DNA of 37,386 nucleotides from Methylococcaceae bacterium. Lineage in GTDB: Bacteria > Pseudomonadota > Gammaproteobacteria > Methylococcales > Methylomonadaceae. The notes below the pieces were generated by a model. That model saw only the letters and a program-made list of their open reading frames with translations, ran no database searches and was not told the DNA's origin. Where the stretch lies: NCBI GenBank assembly GCA_005772825.1, contig SXIP01000216.1:1-37386 (forward strand). The letters are read 5' to 3'. Below, piece by piece: positions 6,501 through 21,586 of the stretch. The translations under genes and the position numbers were made by a program. Every line of letters begins with the position of its first letter. Positions within the stretch are counted from its first letter, which is position 1.

Positions 6501-8249
6501 CGCCTGATGGGCATCGAGCACATTCACGATTCCAGGTCGCTAAGTTTTGCCGAAGAAATCCTGGCGAAAACCAACAATAAAGGCGTCGATGTCGTTTTAA
6601 ATTCATTGGCCGGCGAAGCAATCAACCGAAATTTCCAGGTGTTGAAACCCTTTGGGCGCTTTCTTGAGCTGGGCAAACGCGATTTTTACGAAAACACACG
6701 CATTGGACTGCGCCCGTTTCGTAACAATATCAGTTACTTCGGCATTGACGCCGACCAGTTGATGCAAGAACGCCCGGCACTCACCCGTGAATTGTTCACC
6801 GACATGATGCAACTGTTCCATCAAGGCATACTGCATCCATTGCCTTACACCACCTTTGACGCCAATCAGGTTATCGATGCTTTCCGCTATATGCAGCAGT
6901 CCAGGCAAATCGGTAAAATTGTCGTCACTTATGATAACGGCATTCACGCAAAACCCGCCCCAAGTGAAAGCCCCAAGCAATACTTGACATTATCTCCCGA
7001 TGCCAGCTATCTGGTTACCGGCGGATTAGGCGGCTTTGGCTTAAGAACCGCTCAGTGGCTGGTCGAAAAGGGCGCCAGGCATCTCATTCTGATCAGCAGA
7101 ACCGGCCCTGCTACCGATGAAGCAAAAACAGCACTGGCAGCTTTTGCCGAACAGGGCGTCGCCGTGCATGCCGCCGCTTGCGATGTCACCGACAAAGCAA
7201 CGCTTAGCGCCCTGCTCGATCATTGTGACGCCGCAATGCCGCCGTTGAAAGGCATTATTCATTCAGCCACGGTCATTGATGACAGTCTGGTGCGGAACAT
7301 GGATCGGGACCAAATAAGCCGGGTTTTTGATCCTAAAATACAAGGCGCCTTGTATTTACATGAACTGACCCTGGACAAGTCACTCGATCTTTTTGTGATG
7401 TATTCTTCGGCCACAACGTTGTTCGGCAATCCCGGGCAGGCCAATTATGTCGCCGCCAACTTCTGGCTGGAAGGCCTGGCGTCAGCCAGACGGCAACAAG
7501 GCTTGCCGGCGACTTGCGTATGCTGGGGTGCGATTGATGATGTCGGTTTCCTGGCGCGCAATGAGAAACAAAAAGCGCTCCTGCAAAATCGGATGGGCGG
7601 TTCGGCGCTTGCTTCGGCAGCCGCATTAAATGCGCTTGAGCTTATCATGACCTCAGACAGCCGCACGTTAGGAGTCATGGAGTTTGACTGGCGCGCCTTA
7701 AGCAGCTTCCTGCCGACAGCCCGGTCACCGAAATTCCGTGAACTGGCCGTTCACACAAGCGATTCCGATAACAGCGATGACAATCGCGCCGATATGAAAC
7801 GCCTGCTTGACGAGCTCTCCGATGAGGCCTTGCAAAGCACTTTTATCGACATATTAAAAGAGGAATTGAGCCAGATACTGCTGGTTTCCAAAGAGAAAAT
7901 TGATCCTAACCATTCCATGTACGATATGGGCCTGGACTCACTGATGGGTGTGGAGTTGATGATCGCAATCGAATCACGCTTTGACGTCCAGATTCCCGTG
8001 ATGGCTTTAAGTGAAGCGCCTACGCTGAGCAAACTGGCGGAGCGATTGATTGCTCAACTGCGCGGTGAAAAAACCGCACCTGATGACAAGTCGGCAAATA
8101 CCCAGGCTCAAAACAACAAAGACAGCGCCGATATACTGGCGAGCATCAATGATCTGGCCAAGCGTCATGGCTCCGATGTTACACAAACCCAAATTGATGC
8201 GTTGACTGAGGATCTAAAATCCGGCGCCAGCGTCAGGATGATCAGCTGA
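600..8249 (+). CDS. rkpA: RkpA-like type I polyketide/fatty-acid synthase (KS-AT-DH-[inert MT/psi-KR]-ER-KR-ACP)
   Basis: This 2549-residue iterative synthase should build a fully reduced acyl chain on its own ACP. Visible domains in order: ketosynthase ~1-425 with Cys172 (DTACSSSL), His307 (EAHGTGT) and His345 (KSNLGHLE); acyltransferase ~525-840 with Ser620 in GHSVGE and His724 in YAFH, suggesting malonyl use; dehydratase ~890-1180 with His927 and Asp1091; a long stretch ~1240-1770 containing what look like an inactive methyltransferase and a structural KR half; enoylreductase ~1790-2108 with HGAAGGVG near 1934; ketoreductase ~2135-2315 with GGLGGFG at 2141 and Tyr2283; ACP ~2414-2485 with Ser2447 in GLDSLM. 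There is no thioesterase: the protein ends in a ~60-residue polar tail, so the chain must be released by another enzyme, most simply the next gene product one base downstream. Size, domain order and neighbours match RkpA of Sinorhizobium meliloti, needed for K-antigen capsule. A heterocyst-glycolipid or PUFA-like synthase is less likely because of the kpsS-like neighbour. Confidence 0.85.
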   Translation: MHRRVAIIAYSVRFPGTDTQNFWNDLLAQKDLVTEVDPARWSKQSLLHPDKRHPGSSYTFAAGSLGDISAFDAAFFGISPREAALMDPQQRLLLELSWETFENAGIVPSSLRGSDCGVYIGISSVDYAYRLADDLAAIDSSAATGTISSIAANRISYIFDLHGPSIAMDTACSSSLVAFHQACQAIRTGEISQALAGGINLHLHPFGFISFSKATMLSKTGRCHVFDEAGDGYVRSEGGGLFLLKDYNQAVTDGDQILAVVAGSGVNTDGHKSGLTIPNPLAQASLMSRVYEQAGIDPEAIDYFEAHGTGTAVGDPIEAHAIGMALGQKRKKPLLIGSIKSNLGHLESASGVAGLAKVLSCIQHRAVPATIGIKNPNPNIKFDDWNIEVVTEAVDLKSEGKLIVGINSFGFGGANAHVILESHTKTLKKRAKQKKNQLLPLILSSKDIPGLSLAAQELANFLESANDDAFYDIAHTALFRREQHQQCAVVFSQNAKDAADQLKRFSAQETVQDSSVHTGIHLDNTNGPAFVYSGNGCQWQEMGKQLLVESAIFRRTIIEIDGLFSQYADFSLLDELSGLNGSGRYQYTEIAQPALFAVQVGISEILRENGIRPIAVTGHSVGEVAAAWACGALSLAEAVKVIYYRSHYQGKTKGQGQMTAIGLSEQEITPLLNDPRFSDLHLAGINSNRGVTIAGSAEQLSLLETEIEARNIFFKRLDLDYAFHSPAMDAIESGVRLDLAQLDVKQPSIAFFSTVTGAIFPDSAVGQGQLLDAEYWWHNIRHPVLFQQASAAMLNTGISTFIEIGGHPVLQSYLKDCLKAADTKGIVIPTLIRGKDSANQVMSSVAQAIMSGAAFDQKHWFPVPGRFVELPNYAWQREKLWHTVTSESHGLLTREKIHPLLGYKLKQHDNRWENQLDIQLLPYLADHNVGGAVVFPGAGFAEIALAAAFYSHAADTVEIEELEIRSPLLLSSEHSKVVRFSHDVADGRFMLRSREFAVSSEWSPHIVGRFIAEATGRKLEITAPNIPDRSPDFDINSHAQLTEYAGLQYGDAFKAISHGWTDHNSAVAVFKIPESISAELDHYFLHPALLDCTFQLIFQVLKDEIHKHEGMAFVPTKLGRINLRTNKAVPHSATATLLHRSPHSLNAEFALYDSDGNTIAVLNNVRFRAVRLHRQHAQHLHYLDYHLTAAPLGQQLTPDRHRLHSALSNAIQQTHQESAGLRYSEEVEPLLDSLCAQFVVEALRDLSDGAGFLAESFVNTLYQTNPKSAALLRSAISVAIENQALSVVDGEGWRINQEALAQDISATEIWNTLVQEYPDYFYLINLTGRIGIYLTNLINGDIQASDLSLTPALYAHISSHILEQTGKKTLTDVLINECTRIIQTLPAGERLSILEISSYKPEFAALLCSQLDFNQSDYRFASLCDNAINAAESLHERFPLLQSTRIPPVDANNPESTSNLQTSPANFAIVNLSTINPQEIHHLLAQLPTMLIPGSPVIFIGQQPARWIDIVLGGSEGWWIAQDSGELLSPQLSANQVAEQLQALNFHDTQTLELIPGSYSGTYLITTGIEDKTVECSGDGKNWLILTGQYEPENSLAQRIAGQLKDNGNTVVLQKLQDKGSTLQEQLINAKAQGKHYDHIIHLAGFGQHDAFVQTERCWLATQVTQALEATSIHATLWLLTHNVGSLFPCDQSNTDLAADSMPNDAALWGFGRSLMNEASNYSIKLLDISGANSSDSLLKALITELTHENSEQEIVFNSDGKRFVPRLRNQEVPRIQQPPAEQQTLRLGFKLPGQLRNLHWESTPDRSPADNEIEVEVKATGLNFRDVMYTLGLLSDEAVENGFVGPTLGLEFAGIVTRTGKDVSAFQPGDHVVGLGPASFSNRVITQANAIALIPDKIAFAAAATIPSTFFTVYYALHYQARLQAGEKILIHGAAGGVGIAAIQIAQWLGAEIYATVGSEEKRDFLRLMGIEHIHDSRSLSFAEEILAKTNNKGVDVVLNSLAGEAINRNFQVLKPFGRFLELGKRDFYENTRIGLRPFRNNISYFGIDADQLMQERPALTRELFTDMMQLFHQGILHPLPYTTFDANQVIDAFRYMQQSRQIGKIVVTYDNGIHAKPAPSESPKQYLTLSPDASYLVTGGLGGFGLRTAQWLVEKGARHLILISRTGPATDEAKTALAAFAEQGVAVHAAACDVTDKATLSALLDHCDAAMPPLKGIIHSATVIDDSLVRNMDRDQISRVFDPKIQGALYLHELTLDKSLDLFVMYSSATTLFGNPGQANYVAANFWLEGLASARRQQGLPATCVCWGAIDDVGFLARNEKQKALLQNRMGGSALASAAALNALELIMTSDSRTLGVMEFDWRALSSFLPTARSPKFRELAVHTSDSDNSDDNRADMKRLLDELSDEALQSTFIDILKEELSQILLVSKEKIDPNHSMYDMGLDSLMGVELMIAIESRFDVQIPVMALSEAPTLSKLAERLIAQLRGEKTAPDDKSANTQAQNNKDSADILASINDLAKRHGSDVTQTQIDALTEDLKSGASVRMIS

Positions 8250-8250
8250 C

Positions 8251-9579
8251 ATGGCTAATAAAAGTCTTTCGGGGCAATTAAAAGACAAACTCATTCAACA
8301 GGCGCTCGAACGTAAACTGAAAAAAAACGAGCAATCCGAACTACCGGTAATCAACCCGCTGCAAACAACACGCGTTGATATTCCTGAATCGCTCTACCGT
8401 TTTGATCAGCATGCCGGCTATAAACAGATGCAGATCATGCATAAAGGCGCCACTCAATTGGGCATTCCGAGCCCTTTTTTTCGGATTCATGACGGCATAG
8501 CCGCAGCCACTACGGAAATCGGTGGTCGGCAATACATCAATTACGCCAGCTATAATTATCTCGGTTTATCGGGCGATGCCAGAGTGTCGAACGCCGCCAT
8601 AGAGGCTGTTCAGCGATACGGCACTTCGGTATCGGCTAGTCGGTTGGTTTCAGGAGAAAGGCCAATTCACAGACAGCTGGAAGCAGCCATAGCGGAAACA
8701 TACGGCGTTGACGATGCAATCGTCATGGTCAGCGGTCACGCCACCAACGTCACCACCATCGGTTACCTATTCGGCGCCCGCGACCTGATCCTGCATGATG
8801 AACTGATCCATAACAGCACGCTGATCGGTGCGCAATTATCCGGCGCCCGGCGTCTGTCTTTTCCGCATAATGATTACAACGCGCTGGACAAATTACTGTC
8901 CGAACAGCGACGTAACTATGAGCGTGTGCTGATTGTCATTGAAGGCCTTTACAGCATGGACGGCGACTTCCCGGACTTGCCCCGCTTCATTGAACTGAAG
9001 AACCGGCATCGCGCCTTTTTAATGGTCGATGAGGCCCACTCATTCGGCGTCATGGGTGAAAATGGCCTCGGGATACGCGAGCACTTCGCTATTGAAGGCA
9101 AAGCGGTTGATATATGGATGGGCACGCTCAGTAAATCATTGGCCGGCTGCGGCGGCTTTATTGCCGGCGAATCGGCACTGGTCGAACACCTGAAATTTTT
9201 GGCGCCCGGCTTTCTTTACAGCGTGGGCATGCCGCCCCAAGTCGCTGCACCCGCCCTCGCGGCGCTCAATATCATCAGAAACGAACCACAACGAGTCAAA
9301 CAGCTGCAGGCGCGCTCGCAATATTTTCTAACCAAGGCCAAAGCCGCCGGCATCGACACTGGGCACAGCCAGGGCATAGCCATTATCGCTGCGATAACAG
9401 GCAGCTCCATCAGTGCGGCCCGCCTGTCACAGGCGCTTTTTGAACGCGGCATCAACGTACAACCGATCTTGTACCCCGCCGTTCCTGAAAAAAGCGCACG
9501 CCTCAGATTTTTCATCTGCTCCGACCATACCGAAGAACAAATAGATTTTACTATTCAGGCTTATTGTCAGGAACAGTAA
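8251..9579 (+). CDS. rkpG: RkpG-like PLP-dependent alpha-oxoamine synthase
   Basis: This 442-residue fold-type I aminotransferase belongs to the alpha-oxoamine synthase family (BioF, KBL, serine palmitoyltransferase). The PLP lysine is Lys295 in GTLSKSLAGCGG, and the pyridine-binding Asp260 and His263 lie in VDEAHSFGVMG. The N-terminal ~60 residues, lysine-rich at first, extend beyond the ~385-residue BioF length and could contact the ACP of the synthase. The start codon lies one base after the synthase stop, so the two are translationally linked. The family joins an acyl thioester to an amino acid with loss of CO2; here it could off-load the ACP-bound chain as a long-chain amino-ketone. S. 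meliloti RkpG is the closest functional parallel I know. A biotin role is unlikely because no other bio gene is present. The actual amino-acid substrate cannot be read from the sequence. Confidence 0.8.
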   Translation: MANKSLSGQLKDKLIQQALERKLKKNEQSELPVINPLQTTRVDIPESLYRFDQHAGYKQMQIMHKGATQLGIPSPFFRIHDGIAAATTEIGGRQYINYASYNYLGLSGDARVSNAAIEAVQRYGTSVSASRLVSGERPIHRQLEAAIAETYGVDDAIVMVSGHATNVTTIGYLFGARDLILHDELIHNSTLIGAQLSGARRLSFPHNDYNALDKLLSEQRRNYERVLIVIEGLYSMDGDFPDLPRFIELKNRHRAFLMVDEAHSFGVMGENGLGIREHFAIEGKAVDIWMGTLSKSLAGCGGFIAGESALVEHLKFLAPGFLYSVGMPPQVAAPALAALNIIRNEPQRVKQLQARSQYFLTKAKAAGIDTGHSQGIAIIAAITGSSISAARLSQALFERGINVQPILYPAVPEKSARLRFFICSDHTEEQIDFTIQAYCQEQ

Positions 9580-13670: not shown

Positions 13671-13709
13671 GCGCCAACGGTTTTTTCATCCCACCTACTG
13701 TGTAAGGCC

Positions 13710-13737
13710 TGACCGCCGCCGCTACCGCGCGGCTGTC
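13710..13737 (-). repeat. GC-rich block downstream of VR1, identical to 16017-16044
   Basis: A 28-nt block identical to the one inside the tail of the larger FGE-fold gene. It contains a potential hairpin with stem GCCGC/GCGGC (13718-13722 with 13729-13733). It lies about 70 nt past the variable segment in both genes. It may simply be inherited from the duplication, or it may mark the target for a mutagenic element. Confidence 0.55.
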
Positions 13738-13786
13738 AAGCCGGACACCGCCTACCTGTTTGCCTTGCCGGACTGGATGCGCCTTT

Positions 13787-14584
13787 TCAACCTAGGGCAA
13801 GACGGAAACCGATGTCGAGGTCACGGTAGCCGGGCACGCCCCTGCTGCGGTTAGCAGAACGCGTGTACCAGGCGAGGCGGGACCAGGAACCGCCTCGCAA
13901 CACACGGTGAACGCCCTGCTTCGGCCCAATCGGATCGGGCACCGATTCCACCGGATAATCTCCAAACCAATCCGCACACCACTCATAAACATTGCCGTGC
14001 ATTTCATAGAGTCCCCAACGATTTGAAGGTAACGATTTGACCGGCACCGTTTTTCCCCGATACAGCCCTTTTTTACCTTCAGCATAGGGGTAGTTGCCGT
14101 CATAGTTAACCTGCTCCGGCGTAATATTATCACCGAACGAAAACGGTGTATTTTCCCCTGCCCGGCATGCGTATTCCCATTCGGCTTCGCTCGGCAAGCG
14201 GGCGTTCAAAGACGGGAACATTGCGTTTAAGCGTTCAAGAAAAAGTTGAACGTCGTCCCAACTGACGGTTTCCACGGGATTATCGGGATTATCCTGAAAC
14301 CGGCTGGGGTTACTACCCATGACAGCCTGCCAAAGCACCTGAGTACAGGCGGTATCGGCCAGCCAAAAACCTTTTGTTAACGTGACTTGATGTTGGGTTT
14401 CATCGTCGTAACGCTCCGCTTCTGTTTCCGACGAACCCATCATAAACGTACCGGGGGGCAGCCACCGAAACCATTGGCGGACGCCGTTAACCTCCAAAAT
14501 CATGAACAGGCCATAAGCCCGGTCTTCGCCCCATTCAGAAGCCCAGGGCGCAGGGAATCGAGGTGGCAATAATGCAGGGTTCAT
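13787..14584 (-). CDS. Stand-alone FGE-sulfatase (C-type-lectin-fold) protein with a putative DGR variable region
   Basis: A 265-residue protein made almost wholly of one formylglycine-generating-enzyme-like domain: PPGTFMMGS, the LPSEAEWEYACRAG block, GLYEMHGNVYEWCADWFGD, RVLRGGSW and a final GFRLALG. The two cysteines used by true sulfatase-activating FGE near the C-terminus are absent, so a binding role is more likely than catalysis. It is a paralogue of the last third of the 15965-18646 product. DNA similarity continues past its stop: a CGA codon in the longer gene corresponds to the TGA stop here, so this copy has lost the Gly/Ser-rich tail. The 26 codons at 13808-13885 form a variable segment. 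There is no ATPase or vWA part, so it may work with the operon at 15965-21586 or be a spare target. Confidence 0.8.
   Translation of the reverse strand: MNPALLPPRFPAPWASEWGEDRAYGLFMILEVNGVRQWFRWLPPGTFMMGSSETEAERYDDETQHQVTLTKGFWLADTACTQVLWQAVMGSNPSRFQDNPDNPVETVSWDDVQLFLERLNAMFPSLNARLPSEAEWEYACRAGENTPFSFGDNITPEQVNYDGNYPYAEGKKGLYRGKTVPVKSLPSNRWGLYEMHGNVYEWCADWFGDYPVESVPDPIGPKQGVHRVLRGGSWSRLAWYTRSANRSRGVPGYRDLDIGFRLALG
13808..13885 (-). other. Putative DGR variable region VR1
   Basis: Against the equivalent 78 nt at 16112-16189, which align without gaps, I count 29 differences: 13 at first, 12 at second and only 4 at third codon positions. Many changed codons end in C in both copies (for example TCC/CAC, CGC/AAC, CTC/TAC, GGC/AAC, GAC/TTC), as expected if AAC codons of a template were mutated at adenines. 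Flanking RGGSW, TRSA and IGFRLA are conserved. Just upstream, differences are mainly third-position, as in ordinary genes. Confidence 0.75.
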
Positions 14585-14747
14585 TGTGTTATGCGCCTCC
14601 GGTTCTTAAATTCCGCTTGGTAAGCTTGGCCTGAAGTTCGCGCTTCGTGTCTTGTTGTATTTCCATCACTTTATCACCTGAACTTAATCTAATTGATGAA
14701 GCCGGAGCTTCGTGTCTAATGTCTCCATGCAAAATAACTCATGCCCT

Positions 14748-14856
14748 GGTTCCCAAGCTCCGGCTTGGGAACCCACACGCGAGAAGCCCCAGCTTCGAGA
14801 ATTCTGGAAGCTGGAGCTTCCAAGACTGCATTCCCAAGCTGGAGCTTGGGAACGAG
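14748..14856 (-). repeat. REP/BIME unit, copy R1
   Basis: Three nested palindromes in ~110 bp: GGTTCCCAAGCTCCGGCTTGG with GAACCC, a central GAAGC..CAGCTTCGAGAATTCTGGAAGCTG, and TTCCCAAGCTGGAGCTTGGGAA ended by CGAGG. It has the same orientation as R2 and the opposite one to R3, R4 and R6. Confidence 0.85.
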
Positions 14857-14880
14857 GATTGAACGAGGATCAACTTGAAA

Positions 14881-15020
14881 ACCCGCTGAGCAGTCACTCA
14901 GAACCCAACAAAACAAACCCTACTCACTAAGCCTTAACCACCTCAATCAACCCTGCTCGGCCCCGCATAATCACGCGCACTGGAATAGCGCCAATGCTCA
15001 GGCACATCGACATAGCCGCG
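14881..15020 (-). pseudogene. Remnant of a second RAYT gene (C-terminal ~30 codons only)
   Basis: These 140 bp are a close copy of 15143-15281, which is the 3' end and downstream flank of the intact transposase gene. Read on the minus strand it encodes RGYVDVPEHWRYSSARDYAG, after which a one-base insertion shifts the frame to an early stop. Similarity ends sharply at 15020. With the adjacent R1 it forms a tandem duplicate of the unit 'REP + RAYT 3' end'. Confidence 0.8.
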
Positions 15021-15029
15021 CATTACTCT

Positions 15030-15138
15030 GGTTCCCAAGCTCCAGCTTGGGAACCCAAACTCGAGAAGCTCCAGCTTCGAGAATTCTGGAAGCTGGAGCT
15101 TCCAAGACCGCATTCCCAAGCCGGAGCTTGGGAACGAG
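15030..15138 (-). repeat. REP/BIME unit, copy R2 (3' side of the RAYT gene)
   Basis: Same architecture as R1: GGTTCCCAAGCTCCAGCTTGG start, central CTCCAGCTTCGAGAATTC palindrome, and CATTCCCAAGCCGGAGCTTG end. It lies just past the 3' end of the intact transposase gene. Confidence 0.85.
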
Positions 15139-15185
15139 AATCACCCGCTGAGCAGTTACGCAGAACCCAGCAAAACAAGCCCTGC

Positions 15186-15719
15186 TCACCAAGCCTTCAC
15201 CACATCAATCAACCCTGCTTGCCCGGCATAATCGCGCGCACTGGAATAGCGCCAATGCTCCGGCACATCGACATAGCCGCGTTTCACAGGATTCTGATGA
15301 ATATAATCCAACTTCTGACGCATCATTTGTTCCGATTCCAGCAATTGCGGATGATTGCCCTCTTCCCACACCTGATATTGGCTCTCGATCTTGTGTACAC
15401 GCTTGAACATCGCCAGCATCTCCAACATGCGCTTGGCCTCGCTTTGCTCCAGATAATCGATAATACGCCTGGCGCTGTAAGATTTGAACCGCTGCATATC
15501 ATGGCCGATGTCCTGAGACGACGCTATCAGATGCAGATGGTTTTCCAGGATGACATAACCATAAATCTCAAAGTCCGCTTCCCGCTGCAGAAAGCGCCAG
15601 GAATCCAGCACGATGTCTACCGTCTGGGTGCGGGTGAATAAGGGCAACCAATGATTGACTGTCGCGGTCATGAAATGCGGATAGTTTTTTTGTGTAATGC
15701 GGTAGCGACTTCTGGGCAT
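15186..15719 (-). CDS. REP-associated tyrosine transposase (RAYT, IS200/Y1 family)
   Basis: A 177-residue HUH-superfamily nuclease. The metal-binding HxH is His61-Leu-His63 in YVILENHLHLIAS, and the likely catalytic tyrosine is Tyr81 in MQRFKSYSARRI. The C-terminal YIHQNPVKRGYVDVPEHWRY is typical of RAYTs. These enzymes are single-copy, domesticated relatives of IS200/IS605 transposases that cut REP hairpins and are thought to spread them. The gene is flanked on both sides by REP units in opposite orientations (R2 at 15030-15138, R3 at 15751-15863), the classic RAYT arrangement. It appears intact, so it may be the source of the REP family across this window. Confidence 0.88.
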   Translation of the reverse strand: MPRSRYRITQKNYPHFMTATVNHWLPLFTRTQTVDIVLDSWRFLQREADFEIYGYVILENHLHLIASSQDIGHDMQRFKSYSARRIIDYLEQSEAKRMLEMLAMFKRVHKIESQYQVWEEGNHPQLLESEQMMRQKLDYIHQNPVKRGYVDVPEHWRYSSARDYAGQAGLIDVVKAW

Positions 15720-15750
15720 GGCGATAAGTTGTTTTGGTTACGGAGTTAAT

Positions 15751-15863
15751 CCTCGTTCGCAAGCCGGCTTCGGAATGCTGTGCTGGAAGCTCCAGCTTCC
15801 GGAATTCTCGAAGCTGGAGCTTCTCAGGTGTGGGTTCCCAAGCCGGAGCTTGGGAACCAGTAC
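15751..15863 (+). repeat. REP/BIME unit, copy R3 (5' side of the RAYT gene)
   Basis: CCTCGTTCGCAAGCCGGCTT start, central GAAGCTCCAGCTTCCGGAAT palindrome, and a GGTTCCCAAGCCGGAGCTTG end closed by GGAACCAGTAC. Its orientation is opposite to R1 and R2. Confidence 0.85.
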
Positions 15864-15964
15864 TACCACAGAAACGGTCATCACCCGATGTTGGCTGCAA
15901 AAAGCATTGATAGCGAGTTGCACTTCTTCGGGCCACTTGGCGGGAATGGTAAAAAACTGAAGTT

Positions 15965-18646
15965 TCATGATTTTTTGTTACCTTTCTTGTTGCTGTCCGG
16001 CGTGCTGTGTCCGGCTTGACCGCCGCCGCTACCGCGCGGCTGTCCGTCCGGCCACCCGCCTTCTTTACCTGCCGGACTGGATGCGTCTTTTCGACCCAAA
16101 GCAAGACGAAAACCGATGAACTTGATACGGAGGTCGGGGGCGTTCCAGTGGCATTTAGCAGAACGCGTGCCCCCTGCGTAGTTGTGCCAGGAGCCGCCAC
16201 GCATGACACGGACATCGCCAGTCTCCGCGCCCGTTGGATTGACCACTGCTTCATTTGGGTAATCGCCAAACCAATCTTCGCACCATTCCCAGACATTGCC
16301 GTGCATTTCATAAAGCCCCCAGGGATTAACCGGTAACGATTTCACCGGTACGGTTTTTTCACGATATATATCTTTTTTATCGCCCACATAGGGATGATTA
16401 CCGTTGTAATTAACTTTCTCAGGCGTGATATTGTCGCCGAACGAAAACGGAGTGTTGGTTCCTGCCCGGCAAGCATATTCCCATTCGGCTTCGGTGGGCA
16501 AACGGACGTCAAGACTGGTAAAGTTAGTGTTCAAACGTTCGATGAACCGTTGGCTATCGTTCCAACTGACGTTTTCTACCGGATGGTTGAGATCATCTTT
16601 GAATTCGCTCGGGTTGTCATCCATGATCGCCCTCCATAGCGCTTGCGTACAGGCGGAGTCGGCCAACCAATAGCCTTGAGTTAGCGTCACTTCGTGCTGT
16701 GTTTCCCAACGTAATCGCTCCGGTTCCGAAGCGGGCGATCCCATCATAAACGTACCCGGCGCAATCCAGCGAAAGCGTTGCACGATGCCGTTCAGGTTAA
16801 GGTCGGCATAGAGGCCGTAACGGTCTTGGCCGATGACCTCAGCCCAACTAGGCATGGTCAACCATTCTAAAGTCAGTTCTTCGCGGTCGCTGCGAATCAG
16901 CAAGGGTTGCCCAGGCGTGATAGCTATCGGCTGGTCAAAGGTATACCAACGCGCCCCGTGTTCGGCGTCGGTTTCGATTTGCAGGTAGTCCGTGCTATGG
17001 CGCAGGCTGCCAATACGGCTGCCCCTCGCTGCATCGGTAAGCAGCAACTCCTGACCGCATTGAACAATCTGGCTATCCACAGGCGGCTTGGCGCCAAGCA
17101 TCCAGGCGAATTTTTTCAGGCTTATGGCCTTCGGCAAGTGGGTTACACCGTCTTTTTTATATGCAGCAACCAAGGCCGTAGACAGGTAGGGATTATTCCA
17201 AAATGCGTCCTGCTCTTCTTGCCTGAGCGCCACACGACTTAACCACTGCATAGCGATGTCGCTGATTTCGCCTTCCGACTCACCGACAGTTTTTGCCAGA
17301 CGTTGGGCAAAGCGTTCGGCGTTATCAGGGCTTGCTTGCACCAACAATTCAGCAAGCGCCAGTTGCTCTTCGTAATGAATGACCGGCGACAAATGGGCAT
17401 GATGTTTGTTAAGCAATTCGGCTATTTGCTGTTTTTGTTCGGTGCTTAAATCAGGATCATCGCGCAGGCGGTCACGGTAATGAGACACTTGCGAGGGCTG
17501 GAAATAACAGGCCAGCGGTGTAGTTTGCAGCGCCGGGTGGTTCCACGCCGCGAATTCAGCGCCGACATCCATTGCCTTTGCCGGGAACAGAAAACGAGCC
17601 TCGCGCAGCAAGGCCGGTTCGATACGCACAGCAGTCGCCAGCAAGCTCAGCAATTGTTCGGTGGCCGGATTATCGCGTTCGGGTTTTGCGCTTGCCGTGT
17701 AGGCGGTCTTGCCGGTCAGGCGTTGCGGCGGGCGAACGGCCCTATCCCAATAGACGGCAATAAACACTTGGGTCAATTCGGCATCCCACCAGCGCGGCGG
17801 ACTGGGCATTAACGCCACCGGGCGGCAACCGCTACGGGCGAGTTGCGCACCGAATCGCCGCCAGCGCATGCGCCGTTGCTCACTCACTTCGTTACAGCCC
17901 AAATCGCTTAAAACCAATACCGGTGCGCCGGCCTGCGGCGGATTATAACGGTTTATGGTGCGCCAGCCGTCTGAGGTGTTATGCCAACAAGCGCCGAAGG
18001 GATCGCCATCGGGAAACGCCAGCACATTCAATCCTGCTTGCCCGCGCAGATCGGCAAGCTGTTCGTGCAAGCCGTTAAAATCCGCCCAAAACGGCAGCAA
18101 AGACGGATCAAAATCGATGACGAGTTGCGCCTGACTTGCCCAGCCTTTGCGTTTGGCTTTGGGCAAACGGCGTAACAGTTTGCCTCTGGCGATGCGATCT
18201 ACGATGCGCGGCAAGTCGGGTTTGTGACTGAGAGTATTGGCACCCAAAGCCAGTTTTAGAAACGGCCACAGCCTGCGCCAGGCCATCAGCGGTTTTTGCT
18301 TGGGTGGGCTAAGACCTTCAGGGGCTTTTAAATCGGCATCATTGTCTTGGTAGGGTTGCGCTTCTTGATACCAAAGCGGTTGTTCGGTAATGACTTCATC
18401 GTCTTTGAAGCGGCGGTGGGCGATGACGTGGAGGAAACGGGCCTGGTTGGTATTGACAGTCCCTACACTCATCATCGAATTGAGTGTCGCAGTAATGGCA
18501 ATATTGCCAACTATCCCAACAGCATCGACATTTTTTGAGCTTTCAATAACCGCATAGCCCAAAATAGCCGCAAACTCGTCTATCCGGCTCTCATCACAGT
18601 GCTTAAGGCAAGCCAATAAATCGGCGCGGTTAACTAAGGTCGTCAT
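15965..18646 (-). CDS. SAV_2336-like degenerate vWA protein fused to an FGE/C-type-lectin domain; putative DGR target
   Basis: This 893-residue protein has three parts. Residues ~1-85 are a small alpha-rich N-terminal region, possibly an adaptor-type domain. Residues ~130-300 resemble the vWA-like core of SAV_2336-type MoxR partners (QLVIDFDPSLLPFWADFNGL, PVLVLSDLGCNE, PVALMPSPPRWW), with the metal-site residues not in the usual DxSxS form. A helical linker leads to an FGE-fold domain at ~617-851 (APGTFMMGS, LPTEAEWEYACRAG, MHGNVWEWCEDWFGD, RVMRGGSW, IGFRLALG). A Gly/Ser/Lys-rich tail of ~40 residues ends it. Residues 820-845 are the variable segment. The gene is last in an operon after a phosphoesterase and a MoxR ATPase, seven bases behind the latter. 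The likely role is a sensor or adaptor whose lectin-fold face binds a variable ligand and whose vWA part is handled by MoxR. True FGE activity is unlikely because the catalytic cysteine pair is missing. Confidence 0.78.
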   Translation of the reverse strand: MTTLVNRADLLACLKHCDESRIDEFAAILGYAVIESSKNVDAVGIVGNIAITATLNSMMSVGTVNTNQARFLHVIAHRRFKDDEVITEQPLWYQEAQPYQDNDADLKAPEGLSPPKQKPLMAWRRLWPFLKLALGANTLSHKPDLPRIVDRIARGKLLRRLPKAKRKGWASQAQLVIDFDPSLLPFWADFNGLHEQLADLRGQAGLNVLAFPDGDPFGACWHNTSDGWRTINRYNPPQAGAPVLVLSDLGCNEVSEQRRMRWRRFGAQLARSGCRPVALMPSPPRWWDAELTQVFIAVYWDRAVRPPQRLTGKTAYTASAKPERDNPATEQLLSLLATAVRIEPALLREARFLFPAKAMDVGAEFAAWNHPALQTTPLACYFQPSQVSHYRDRLRDDPDLSTEQKQQIAELLNKHHAHLSPVIHYEEQLALAELLVQASPDNAERFAQRLAKTVGESEGEISDIAMQWLSRVALRQEEQDAFWNNPYLSTALVAAYKKDGVTHLPKAISLKKFAWMLGAKPPVDSQIVQCGQELLLTDAARGSRIGSLRHSTDYLQIETDAEHGARWYTFDQPIAITPGQPLLIRSDREELTLEWLTMPSWAEVIGQDRYGLYADLNLNGIVQRFRWIAPGTFMMGSPASEPERLRWETQHEVTLTQGYWLADSACTQALWRAIMDDNPSEFKDDLNHPVENVSWNDSQRFIERLNTNFTSLDVRLPTEAEWEYACRAGTNTPFSFGDNITPEKVNYNGNHPYVGDKKDIYREKTVPVKSLPVNPWGLYEMHGNVWEWCEDWFGDYPNEAVVNPTGAETGDVRVMRGGSWHNYAGGTRSAKCHWNAPDLRIKFIGFRLALGRKDASSPAGKEGGWPDGQPRGSGGGQAGHSTPDSNKKGNKKS
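16017..16044 (-). repeat. GC-rich block in the tail of the vWA-FGE gene, identical to 13710-13737
   Basis: A 28-nt block with a potential GCCGC/GCGGC hairpin, about 67 nt past the variable segment. Here it is coding (Gly/Arg/Ser-rich tail); in the other copy it is past the stop. Exact identity in a region otherwise diverged suggests selection or recent exchange. Confidence 0.55.
16112..16189 (-). other. Putative DGR variable region VR2
   Basis: The 26 codons of residues 820-845 run from the Trp of GGSW to the Gly of IGFRLA. Variable codons such as CAC, AAC, TAC, GGC, TGC, GAC, CTC and ATC mostly keep a third-position C, while ACG CGT TCT GCT (TRSA) in the middle is identical to VR1. This matches the layout of known FGE-fold DGR targets, in which template AAC codons become NNC. 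Confidence 0.75.
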
Positions 18647-18653
18647 CGCCGAT

Positions 18654-19607
18654 TTACGTACTGGCTTTGCGATAAACGAAACGGCGCAAAATGCTCAGCA
18701 ATTCAAGCTGTTCCTTTTCCGTTGTCGCCATGCCGCTAATGGCTCTGAGCAAATCAAGGTATTCGGCCTGTCCGGGTCTGGGTTGTCCCGGTTCGACAGC
18801 GTTGCGGTCTTCAACCAATAATTCCGCGGCGCGTTGACGCACATCGGCGCTGCACAGATCAGCAAAATGTACTTCACCGCGACGGCACAGGAATTCAATC
18901 AAGTCATCTTTATTGTCGGGCAGCGTCAACGGCAGCACCAAACAACGGCGGACGAAGGCTGCCGGTAATTCGCGTTCTTCATTGGTGGTAATCACAACCA
19001 GCGGCGCGGGGACTTCAGTCTCCCGGCACACCGAACCACCCATATAGGGCACTTTAAAATCACCGTTACCCAAGGTCTCCAGGAGGCTATTCGGTAAATC
19101 GGTATCGGCTTTGTCGATTTCGTCAATCAACAACACACTGCCTTGACCGGGTTCCCAGCCTTCGGGTCTATCTGGAACCGGATCACTTGGATTGCTGCAA
19201 TACTTGAACTGTGCTTCAGCGGAATGCCAGTTCAACGCCCACCACAGCGGGCCGGGGCTGAGAAAGCGCGCCGGCTCCAAACGGCTAAGCCGCTCCGAGT
19301 CCGGCACCGAAGCCATAATCTGCGCCTCGCCCAGGCGCGCCACGGCATCGAATTTCCATTGCAAGTCTTCGCATTCGGTGCGCGCGTTCACAACCACGGA
19401 TAAAAACAAGCGGCCTGTCGCTACCGCCGCCGCCCGCGCCAATTGGCTTTTGCCGGTGCCGGGTTCGCCGCGCAACAATAAAGGCCGACCGGCGGCTTCC
19501 GCGGCCATCAGCGCGTAGCCGTGTTGTTCTTCGAAGAGATGGGTGCTTTCTGGCCAGGAGCCTAGTTTGGGGAGAGTTAGGGGATTGCTGGTAGAATAAA
19601 GTGTCAT
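18654..19607 (-). CDS. MoxR-family AAA+ ATPase
   Basis: A 317-residue AAA+ protein: Walker A GEPGTGKS at 47-54, Walker B VLLIDEIDKA at 158-167, sensor-1 region ITTNEER with Asn210, and an arginine pair at 221-222. Length and motif order fit the MoxR/RavA group, which act as chaperones for vWA-domain partners. The start codon overlaps the phosphoesterase stop (ATGA, 19604-19607) and the vWA-FGE gene follows after seven bases, so all three are made together. An insertion around residues 125-155 between the Walker motifs contains the tryptophan-rich LWWALNW stretch. In conflict systems of this kind the ATPase would remodel or release the vWA protein when the sensor is engaged; that role is inferred from context. 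Confidence 0.85.
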   Translation of the reverse strand: MTLYSTSNPLTLPKLGSWPESTHLFEEQHGYALMAAEAAGRPLLLRGEPGTGKSQLARAAAVATGRLFLSVVVNARTECEDLQWKFDAVARLGEAQIMASVPDSERLSRLEPARFLSPGPLWWALNWHSAEAQFKYCSNPSDPVPDRPEGWEPGQGSVLLIDEIDKADTDLPNSLLETLGNGDFKVPYMGGSVCRETEVPAPLVVITTNEERELPAAFVRRCLVLPLTLPDNKDDLIEFLCRRGEVHFADLCSADVRQRAAELLVEDRNAVEPGQPRPGQAEYLDLLRAISGMATTEKEQLELLSILRRFVYRKAST

Positions 19608-21586
19608 TTTGATTGGTATTTGCTTAATAAATAGAGAAACTCTTTGATTGAAACCAGCAAGTCACTTTCAGGAACTATCAAGACTCGGTCGCCAAAGCCT
19701 GTGCCATATACAAAAATACCGAAATGCTCAAAAATTTTACCAAGTTCATTCCAAATTGGATTTTTTGACATGGCTGAATAATCCTCATAAGGGATTGTTA
19801 TATTATAACGTTCCCCATCTTTGAATCTCCGCTCTAACATTTTTGGTAAGTTTGCTAACATTTCTTTAGTCGTCGGAAACTTATCGTTCCGAGTTACTTT
19901 TTTCCAAATGATTTGCAGAACTTTCTGTAAATAATCTTCAGAAAACATACCAGACTCCAAGTCTGGATAATCTAACTCAGTATGGCAAATTTGCCTGTTG
20001 GCACGAACTTCATAATCTTCTTCAACAAACTCTAAAGAAGGTCGCGTTGCTGATAAACGGCCATTTCCAATCTCTGCCCAGATAGTATGGTTTTCAGGTA
20101 TCCCCTTTGTAGGTTTAATTGAGGAATTAAGGCTATTATCTGGTTGCGATAAAACCCAGGCATCCGGTACGGCGAGCCTTAACAACCATTCCATGATATC
20201 TTTCGAAACTCTTATTGCATGCTCTAAGAGCTTTGGTGGTTCATACTGGACGACTTCGAGCCAATTTTTTACTATTGTATGCCACTCATCAATTATCGAA
20301 ATAATTGGAAATGGTTCAATTTCGTATGGAACCAAATAAATCTCAAGTTCTGTCTGAGTTTTATCCTTCTCAGTATGTTTCTTGAATTTTGCATGCAAAA
20401 TTTTTCCAATCCTATCCATGTCAGGGTTAGGGATAATTTTCCTAATCTCTTCGCGTACTTCAGCCCTAACCTGTTCAGAAACTGTAAGAGCCGTTGGACT
20501 TGTTAAGCCTTTTGTTGAAACCAGGGACGGATTATCATTAGGAAGCTTTGTAGAAATCAAGCTCAATATGGGCTGAAAATTCTTAATTAACCATAACCCA
20601 TTATTGTTCTCCATATCCTCTATGACACGAGGAATCCAACCGCCATGCCCGTCAAATTTCCGTAACCAGATTTCCATATCGCCGGTTTCCAGGTTCAAAC
20701 GCACAAAGTTATAACCATTTTCCTGATCAGACTTTTCGTAGCTGGCGGCAGCAGCTATACGAACATGACGGTTGTTTATGGCATTGACCCAGCCTTGATG
20801 CTCGTGACCATGCAGGAAAAAATCAAAATCCCGTGCCATTTGACTTCGTATCAAGACATCTTCCTGTTCGACAAACCAGCCGGGCGGGTGATGGATGAGC
20901 GCCAATTTCAGATCGGCATTTTCAATGTCAAGGCTCTCAACGATAGTGCCGTTTTGCCAATCACCACCTAACCAGAGCTTGCCTTTTTCCTTTTCGCGGC
21001 TGCAATTCCAGGCGGAATTAAAACCACCAATGCCGAGTTTTATCCCATGAAATTCCCTGATCTGTGAATAGATGAGTCGTTCGGGATCGTCAAGCAAATG
21101 TGTGTAGGCGTTGTTTTCCAAAAACTGACGATACACCTTTAATCTATCCATATATTGCTTCCATGCTTTTTTCTTTTCTTTAATAAGCTGGGTCACACTT
21201 TCCGTATTGGCCTTATTTTCTATCCATTCAATTTCTAATTCCGTCACTTCGGCACGATCCACATCGTGATTACCTGGGACCAAAAACAGGTTTTGTTTTG
21301 GGATTTCTGCACTAAACGCTGCCCGCACTCCGGTAAGAAACGTTTCGACATCGCGATATTGCTCGGCTAACGTGGAACCCGGCCCGGAACCGTAATTACC
21401 AAATGCCGCATCGCCGGTAAAAAACATCAGTTGCGGCAGCAAACCGTGATCATTTTCCATGCGCTTTAAATCCCTGATTAAAGGCTTCATAACCCGGTGG
21501 GCATCCCAGCCTGTTTTGGGTTTACATAAATGCAGGTCGGACAAATGCAGCCAGACGATGGATTTAGATTGATTGATTATGCTCAC
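19604..21586 (-). CDS. Calcineurin-like metallophosphoesterase with a long C-terminal extension
   Basis: A 660-residue protein. Residues 1-~310 are a complete calcineurin-type phosphoesterase: WLHLSDLHL, FFTGDAAFG, VPGNHDVDR, LALIHHPPG and FFLHGHEHQG supply the two-metal ligands. Residues ~350-660 show no family I can name; they contain a charged helix (VSEQVRAEVREEIRK) and several W-rich segments. The start is GTG at 21586, with AGGAG at 21596-21600 nine bases upstream. It is the first gene of a three-gene operon with MoxR and vWA-FGE, so it is the likely effector, hydrolysing a nucleotide, nucleic acid or other phosphoester. The 3' half is visibly more AT-rich than the 5' half and than its neighbours, which suggests a mosaic gene. 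The substrate cannot be assigned. Confidence 0.8.
   Translation of the reverse strand: MSIINQSKSIVWLHLSDLHLCKPKTGWDAHRVMKPLIRDLKRMENDHGLLPQLMFFTGDAAFGNYGSGPGSTLAEQYRDVETFLTGVRAAFSAEIPKQNLFLVPGNHDVDRAEVTELEIEWIENKANTESVTQLIKEKKKAWKQYMDRLKVYRQFLENNAYTHLLDDPERLIYSQIREFHGIKLGIGGFNSAWNCSREKEKGKLWLGGDWQNGTIVESLDIENADLKLALIHHPPGWFVEQEDVLIRSQMARDFDFFLHGHEHQGWVNAINNRHVRIAAAASYEKSDQENGYNFVRLNLETGDMEIWLRKFDGHGGWIPRVIEDMENNNGLWLIKNFQPILSLISTKLPNDNPSLVSTKGLTSPTALTVSEQVRAEVREEIRKIIPNPDMDRIGKILHAKFKKHTEKDKTQTELEIYLVPYEIEPFPIISIIDEWHTIVKNWLEVVQYEPPKLLEHAIRVSKDIMEWLLRLAVPDAWVLSQPDNSLNSSIKPTKGIPENHTIWAEIGNGRLSATRPSLEFVEEDYEVRANRQICHTELDYPDLESGMFSEDYLQKVLQIIWKKVTRNDKFPTTKEMLANLPKMLERRFKDGERYNITIPYEDYSAMSKNPIWNELGKIFEHFGIFVYGTGFGDRVLIVPESDLLVSIKEFLYLLSKYQSK

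Follow-up and report, generated by a model that had tools for sequence, protein, structure and literature searches.

The stretch of DNA analyzed here (37,386 nucleotides of contig SXIP01000216.1 from the Methylococcaceae bacterium assembly GCA_005772825.1, hereafter the window) carries two minus-strand genes with FGE-type domains, a short and a long target, each containing toward its 3′ end a variable region (VR A and VR B, respectively) with the footprint of adenine mutagenesis by a diversity-generating retroelement (DGR). The favored reading, to which a probability of roughly 0.86 is assigned, is that both regions were written by a DGR and that the two genes belong to an orphaned operon, comprised of a phosphoesterase protein, MoxR, a long target joining a vWA-like extension to an FGE domain and a short FGE target, in which the retroelement core has been replaced by repetitive extragenic palindromic (REP) sequence and a REP-associated tyrosine transposase (RAYT), with the targets now most likely fixed or slowly decaying. 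The targets and their VRs are as follows.

13808–13885, minus strand: variable region A, 26 codons, in the short target (ungapped alignment to B and to a panel of template repeats)
16112–16189, minus strand: variable region B, 26 codons, in the long target (ungapped alignment to A and to the same panel)
13787–14584, minus strand: short target, 265 amino acids, FGE/C-type-lectin-type domain only (Pfam PF03781, E 1.1e-47)
15965–18646, minus strand: long target, 893 amino acids, N-terminal extension and C-terminal FGE domain at 16100–16768 (PF03781, E 5.5e-45)

Codon Pattern of the Variable Regions

A preliminary description of the window had assigned both genes to the FGE fold, which is borne out by the matches to the FGE-sulfatase family (PF03781) listed above, and had aligned 26 codons of the two without gaps, counting 29 differences, of which 13, 12 and 4 fall at first, second and third codon positions (13/12/4); recounting at the coordinates above gives exactly these figures. 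The third-position excess that it reported for the neighboring DNA is likewise found, with the other 225 aligned codons differing at 55/41/108 positions (Fisher p = 5e-5 against the segment). When a frame of 26 codons was slid along the alignment, the share of differences at positions 1 and 2 peaked at these coordinates, tied with the placement one codon upstream, and in both targets the VR lies within the last ∼35 codons of the FGE domain, at its C-terminal end. Seventeen codons differ between A and B, and in 11 of these the last base is C on both sides, in keeping with the C-ending variable codons described earlier; the blocks GGSW, TRSA and IGFRLA, described as constant, are identical in the two. 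Third-position differences affect 4 of 26 codons inside the VR and 88 of 190 outside it (p = 0.0019), and a template common to A and B would be expected to produce such low third-position divergence. The control consisted of three Accumulibacter relatives of the same gene (L018, L019, and L020), whose pairwise comparisons across these 26 codons gave 0/2/11, 0/1/7, and 0/3/7. The 13/12/4 pattern is thus unlike the ordinary divergence of an FGE fold that has not been rewritten. Both target reading frames are open, which together with the third-position divergence of the flanks fits targets under selection.

Adenine Footprint against Templates of Other Genomes

Fifteen template repeats (TRs), all from other genomes, were aligned codon for codon to A and B. 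They come from stretches reached through a reverse transcriptase (RT) match and in which a TR was found; the panel does not include L023 (see below), L161 (on the same contig as L024), or L160 and L163, neither of which yielded a TR. Sites with adenine in at least half of the TRs were taken as A sites (26 of 78) and those with adenine in <20% as non-A sites (48 of 78). The alignment to a template proposed in the preliminary description was run with the TRs of relatives, and the differences concentrate at template adenines, although not exclusively, with 24 of the 29 on the 26 A sites and five on the 48 non-A sites. Random placement of the differences, also within codon position, was never as extreme in 20000 trials (p floor 5e-5), and removal of the two TRs from the same family still left 24 of 29 on 26 A sites and five on the rest. 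The same tendency is seen in the VR pair of a second locus of this genome (VR C and VR D, on contig C273), where 15 of 18 differences are on A sites after one extra VR D codon was dropped, and in the pair of L021, another member of the family, with 12 of 13.

This footprint, and the presence of the same two-target layout in homologous loci that bear an RT and a TR (see below), uphold the earlier interpretation of the pattern as DGR adenine mutagenesis, and the DGR reading of A and B is well supported. Error-prone cDNA of an AAC-rich template would have taken the place of the 3′ end in both FGE domains, and codon positions 1 and 2 would have been randomized by mutagenic retrohoming before the core was lost, as the pattern and the relatives suggest. 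An explanation without a retroelement, in which positive selection acted on the ligand-binding face or FGE paralogues underwent gene conversion, predicts neither the coincidence of the differences with other genomes' template adenines nor the lowered third-position divergence. It would sit well with the intact state of both frames, and ligand-binding faces can evolve fast; the undiversified relatives, however, show only the 0/2/11, 0/1/7, and 0/3/7 given above, and HRDC stubs at both loci of the genome indicate a former DGR core. Such an explanation is considered most improbable.

The VR-side ends (IMH) were also compared with TR ends. A segment encoding IGFRLALG (13790–13813), which overlaps VR A, ends in CTAGGT, as do the VRs of L016 and L155, whose TRs have CTAGCT, and VR B ends in TTGGGT; at the window this comparison of VR and TR ends rests on the TRs of relatives. 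A GC-rich stretch, CCGCGCGGTAGCGGCGG, is found downstream of A (13700–13770), of B (16020–16060) and of the VRs of genome G066. It looks like an imperfect inverted repeat and was not counted as a hairpin.

Within the pair, VR B carries a base absent from all 15 TRs at two of the five non-A sites at which it differs from A, and VR A carries no base foreign to the 15 TRs except one common to A and B, which suggests that the VR of the long target has drifted more than that of the short target.

Complete DGRs in Related Genomes

Relatives of the short target were collected by a scan with this protein as the query, from which the best 80 loci were kept, and a search for DGR-type RT motifs in the flanking DNA stored with them identified RTs at five of the 80. 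The relative with the best E-value among these 80, L016 (Accumulibacter NZ_JAPUVI010000063.1; 64% identity), has the order MoxR, 967-residue long target, HRDC gene, RT, TR and 285-residue short target. Its TR differs from its two VRs by 16 and 14 mismatches at template adenines and by none elsewhere over 75 bp. The L016 locus thus shares with the window the operon order, the two targets and a short target of 64% identity, but retains the HRDC, RT and TR between the targets that the window is without. The operon order of the window together with an RT is found in L016, in L150 (a related operon) and in L215. Further TRs were obtained from additional stretches of relatives, and in 12 of these stretches TR-to-VR comparisons gave zero or one non-A mismatch in 70 bp, a purity that is partly built in, since the scan behind these comparisons admitted ≤3 non-A mismatches. 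The other TR scans admitted ≤4 or ≤2, and TRs more decayed than these limits would have been missed.

Loss of the Core at the Window

The source genome (G000), probably that of a gammaproteobacterial methanotroph, is a 3.7-Mb assembly in 292 contigs, 77.31% complete, in which the window is contig C208; the second locus lies on C273 (stretch L005), and a further contig, C275, is represented by stretch L002. The preliminary description had proposed a genome-wide search for an RT and a template and had named the lack of both as the outcome that would speak against its interpretation. Neither was found, but only in this incomplete assembly. DNA searches of the assembly that started from VR B or from VR C detected no TR and returned only the known VRs and short matches; the surroundings of six and four of the latter were inspected by eye and none was template-like. 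The RT of L016 as a query matched only a group II-like remnant in the genome (E 1.2e-6). Two RVT_1 matches in the genome were considered and neither was taken for a DGR RT: L001 is a group II intron-like remnant, and L002 fits best to the PADLOC model RT_UG39. The latter (L002:868–1689 on C275, near the contig end; RT_UG39 E 1.4e-66) is a candidate defense-type reverse transcriptase in its own right.

The interval between the two targets of the window contains the following elements.

15870–15968, minus strand: HRDC accessory stub, 33 codons, running into REP sequence (phmmer with the L016 HRDC protein, E 6.6e-5 in 7909 open reading frames)
15186–15719, minus strand: RAYT, 177 amino acids (NCBIfam NF047646, E 3.9e-29, above cut-off)
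14746–14859, 15028–15141 and 15764–15860, no strand assigned: REP-type palindrome blocks flanking the RAYT (repeat search)
14881–15020 against 15143–15281: partial duplication of the 3′ part of the RAYT (repeat search)

The HRDC-like frame overlaps the stop of the long target and resembles HRDC for 33 codons before passing into REP sequence, and the REP palindromes and RAYT fill much of the interval in which relatives carry the RT and TR. No complete accessory gene is present at the locus, only this truncated HRDC remnant (an Avd gene was not searched for). A comparable arrangement is seen at the second locus on C273, whose VR pair lies at L005:2113–2190 and L005:3359–3439: MoxR is located upstream of the targets, and the interval separating them contains an HRDC stub. 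The same phmmer search gave this stub an E-value of 1.4e-4; by eye its HRDC-like start extends for 44 codons, followed by sequence similar to that of the window, and the C273 VR pair has CTGGGT where the window has ATCGGT. A stub of HRDC at each of the two loci points to a DGR core having once been present. The anatomy of the window shows the loss of the local core, with the HRDC reduced to a stub, the RT and template gone and REP and RAYT sequence in their place, and in the absence of a local RT or template the targets are orphans at this locus.

Because short-read assemblies can be broken or wrongly joined at REP repeats and the genome is in 292 contigs, the gap could in principle be a mis-assembly at repeats that conceals a full core at the true locus. 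The core-less layout recurs, however, with neither RT nor TR found in 10 of 13 two-target stretches of the family (see below), C273 has an HRDC stub of its own, and a fragment of a RAYT also follows the long target in another genome (L203 of G081, a 60% homologue); mis-assembly is thus regarded as very unlikely.

Comparable arrangements were noted elsewhere. On C302 of G066 (L165 and L166), inspection by eye shows REP-like repeats and a frame resembling a RAYT separating two tandem VR-bearing targets. L017 (Accumulibacter meliphilus) has two starts of HRDC genes, with matches limited to 62 and 65 residues, and may perhaps represent core loss outside the methanotrophs.

Core-less Loci across the Family

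A survey of 237 genomes of the family (E 1e-15) with residues 1–610 of the long target as the query matched the extension in 27 of them, the source genome included. From these matches 16 stretches were picked by hand, one being C273 of the source genome. Both targets are on the contig in 13 of the 16 (12 from other genomes of the family, and C273; the short target of L211 is partial), and no second target was found in the L203 and L204 stretches. The 13 two-target stretches comprise one with an RT (L215), two with a TR and no RT (L209 and L211) and 10 in which neither was found. L213 has HRDC and RT near a contig end, L205, of the same family, has the window's four genes without a core, and in L021 (Methylococcaceae bacterium WB-IL-19) the two targets overlap directly.

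Non-A differences were scored per locus as the mean over VR pairs, a locus's own TR being left out when the A sites were defined. They ranged from 0 to 3 in 10 core loci and from 0 to 25 in 11 core-less loci (Mann-Whitney p = 0.003, or 0.0013 if own TRs were kept in the definition of the A sites). Among the core-less loci the window scores 5, C273 2, L021 1 and G066 C302 0, the last two being in the same genome, which also bears a DGR core at another place. The core group omits L159 (VRs of unequal length), L161, and six loci in which fewer than two VRs fitted the motif (L023, L151, L153, L160, L162, and L163); the core-less group omits L207 and L210 (one VR fitted), L211 and L209 (TR present), loci with a single VR, and L017, which has 18 A-site and two non-A differences and whose genome has other RTs. 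Loss of the local core thus accompanies decay on average, but not always.

Two further observations may bear on this loss. L209 has at 7560–8450 a shortened HRDC frame and a TR, with no RT found, and its VRs differ at 19 A sites and no non-A site; it could possibly be an intermediate stage. In two other genomes, the short targets at L214:5921 and L216:12197 have an identical VR peptide, with three of 78 VR bases differing, and 39/36/84 differences in an ungapped comparison of the 190 codons upstream, which would be consistent with a VR segment that was either frozen or recently transferred.

Points against the Favored Reading and Diversification in Trans

Several results weigh against the reading given at the outset. 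No DGR-type RT was found in the assembly, and the footprint is read against other genomes' TRs. Of the five loci at which an RT was identified, L023, with a short RT frame of 226 residues, is the least clean, its TR/VR comparisons giving two and four non-A mismatches. Three of the 11 core-less loci (L021, G066 C302 and C273) have 0–2 non-A differences, like the core loci. The sensor and defense role discussed below draws only on literature proposals and gene neighborhood. No hairpin (stem of at least 6 bp, loop of 3–6) was found within 120 bp after A or B; the same scan also found none after the VRs of L154 and L155, and as both of these bear an RT, the hairpin criterion is not decisive. Finally, the five non-A differences between A and B exceed those of all 18 core-bearing pairs (maximum 3), and a single template common to both and used recently consequently leaves part of the pattern unexplained.

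This last result bears equally on the possibility that a core in the unassembled ∼23% of the genome continues to diversify the targets actively in trans, since five differences at 48 non-A sites, compared with ≤3 in the core-bearing pairs, are more than such activity would lead one to expect. VR C is also informative here. Only 17 of its 28 differences from A and 15 of its 31 from B are on A sites, and it departs from A at 9 and from B at 14 of the 48 non-A sites; this distribution argues that the window and C273 loci had different templates, and one TR could hardly serve both. A completeness of 77.31% in 292 contigs does leave space for a remote core, and trans diversification has been argued for the core-less DGR 4 and 5 of Thiohalocapsa (Doré et al. 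2024, PMC10907252). Moreover, the G066 C302 pair differs at 5/4/0 positions with no non-A difference, despite the visibly different TR of the G066 core (C67). On balance, continuing activity in trans at the window is judged unlikely: the targets are most likely fixed or slowly decaying, and service by a DGR outside the assembly is the less likely state.

Operon and vWA-like Extension

On the minus strand the operon runs from the phosphoesterase protein (21586–19604) through MoxR (19607–18654) and the long target (18646–15965) to the gap and the short target (14584–13787). Its remaining elements are as follows.

19604–21586, minus strand: calcineurin-like phosphoesterase (N-terminal), 660 amino acids, first gene of the operon (PF00149, E 7.7e-9)
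18654–19607, minus strand: MoxR-type AAA ATPase, 317 amino acids (AAA_5, E 6.5e-13; relatives carry a homologue upstream of their long target)
17732–18154, minus strand: divergent vWA-like domain in the long-target extension, residues ∼165–305 (AlphaFold2 models, VIA-align, alignment)

Pfam, searched up to E 5, gave no match to the N-terminal extension of the long target. Two AlphaFold2 models of this extension (mean predicted local distance difference test scores of 74.9 and 76.3) were compared with known structures. In VIA-align, vWA domains took ranks 1–18 of the best 50 rows for the first model (Z 9.7–7.9) and ranks 1–16 for the second (Z 9.2–8.3), and included NorD, a vWA protein that partners the MoxR ATPase NorQ. 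Other folds follow close behind (MTH_862 at Z 8.2, HPRT at Z 7.9 and lower), a Z under 8 in this program may reflect merely a common arrangement, and Foldseek returned no match for the models at E ≤ 0.001. All 13 homologues in the alignment keep Asp178 and Asp248 unchanged. The rank, the two invariant aspartates and the neighboring MoxR jointly suggest, with moderate confidence, that the modeled extension is a divergent vWA domain beside its MoxR.

The phosphoesterase protein matches NCBIfam DS8_antiphage (E 1.7e-29, below cut-off) and PADLOC PDC-S60 (E 6.8e-33), and its gene sits where VMAP sits in the ternary conflict systems with DGR-diversified FGS domains described by Kaur et al. (2020, PMC7159879). 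In those systems, as in the window, an effector-type gene and MoxR accompany a vWA component with a C-terminal FGS/FGE domain bearing the VR, but the vWA-like domain of the window is recognized by fold only, and the window differs in two respects. Assignment of the phosphoesterase protein to VMAP is not supported, its C-terminal 361 residues having no VMAP-C match and only one to DUF5962 (E 0.19). The N-terminal MoxR motifs WxhapG and PsWRxa, given as distinctive in the same paper, were both absent before the Walker A site of the window MoxR when its translation was inspected by eye. With neither VMAP-C nor these motifs, the window was not filed as a VMAP system.

Closer in layout are the clade 5A two-target DGR loci of Doré et al. 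(2024, PMC10907252), which adjoin MoxR and whose target extensions are described there as lacking predicted domains. The likeness lies in a MoxR directly upstream of an extended long target, accompanied by a short target with only a C-type-lectin domain, and is one of layout, because the window lacks an RT and TR; the window also differs in having the phosphoesterase as first gene and a vWA-like extension. The same account proposes a sensor role and describes degenerate loci in which repeat arrays replace the RT.

By analogy with these and other published proposals, the FGE face would be a ligand-binding sensor, with MoxR and the vWA-like domain relaying binding to the phosphoesterase protein, and the operon is most likely a system of conflict or anti-phage type. 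A C-type-lectin fold is also that of the target in the Bordetella phage BPP-1 DGR. The window and BPP-1 have in common the adenine-directed rewriting of a VR from a template repeat; the BPP-1 target is a phage protein, however, and the GC-rich hairpin that follows its VR (Guo et al. 2011, PMC3240598) was not found at the window by the strict scan.

Implications

Earlier publications already cover MoxR-linked systems whose FGE domains are diversified by a DGR, as well as degenerate loci and remote targets. A vWA-like extension in a clade 5A-type target, replacement of the core by REP and RAYT sequence and the graded loss of the footprint were not met in the parts of the published accounts compared, and no absence from print is claimed.

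A wider proposal is put forward tentatively, the evidence falling somewhat short of an even case: that DGR cores in this family are repeatedly discarded and the intact targets kept as a fixed sensor repertoire, with the non-A differences between paired VRs serving as a rough clock of the loss and the extension as a hidden vWA domain. If true, the hidden vWA would link the clade 5A-type targets with the ternary vWA systems of Kaur et al. (2020, PMC7159879). RT-based DGR surveys miss targets that do not adjoin the RT, as Roux 2021 states for remote targets; orphan target pairs are recognizable by codon pattern alone. If the targets function after loss of the retroelement, DGRs would produce immune-type sensors as transient generators, in addition to acting as standing mutators.

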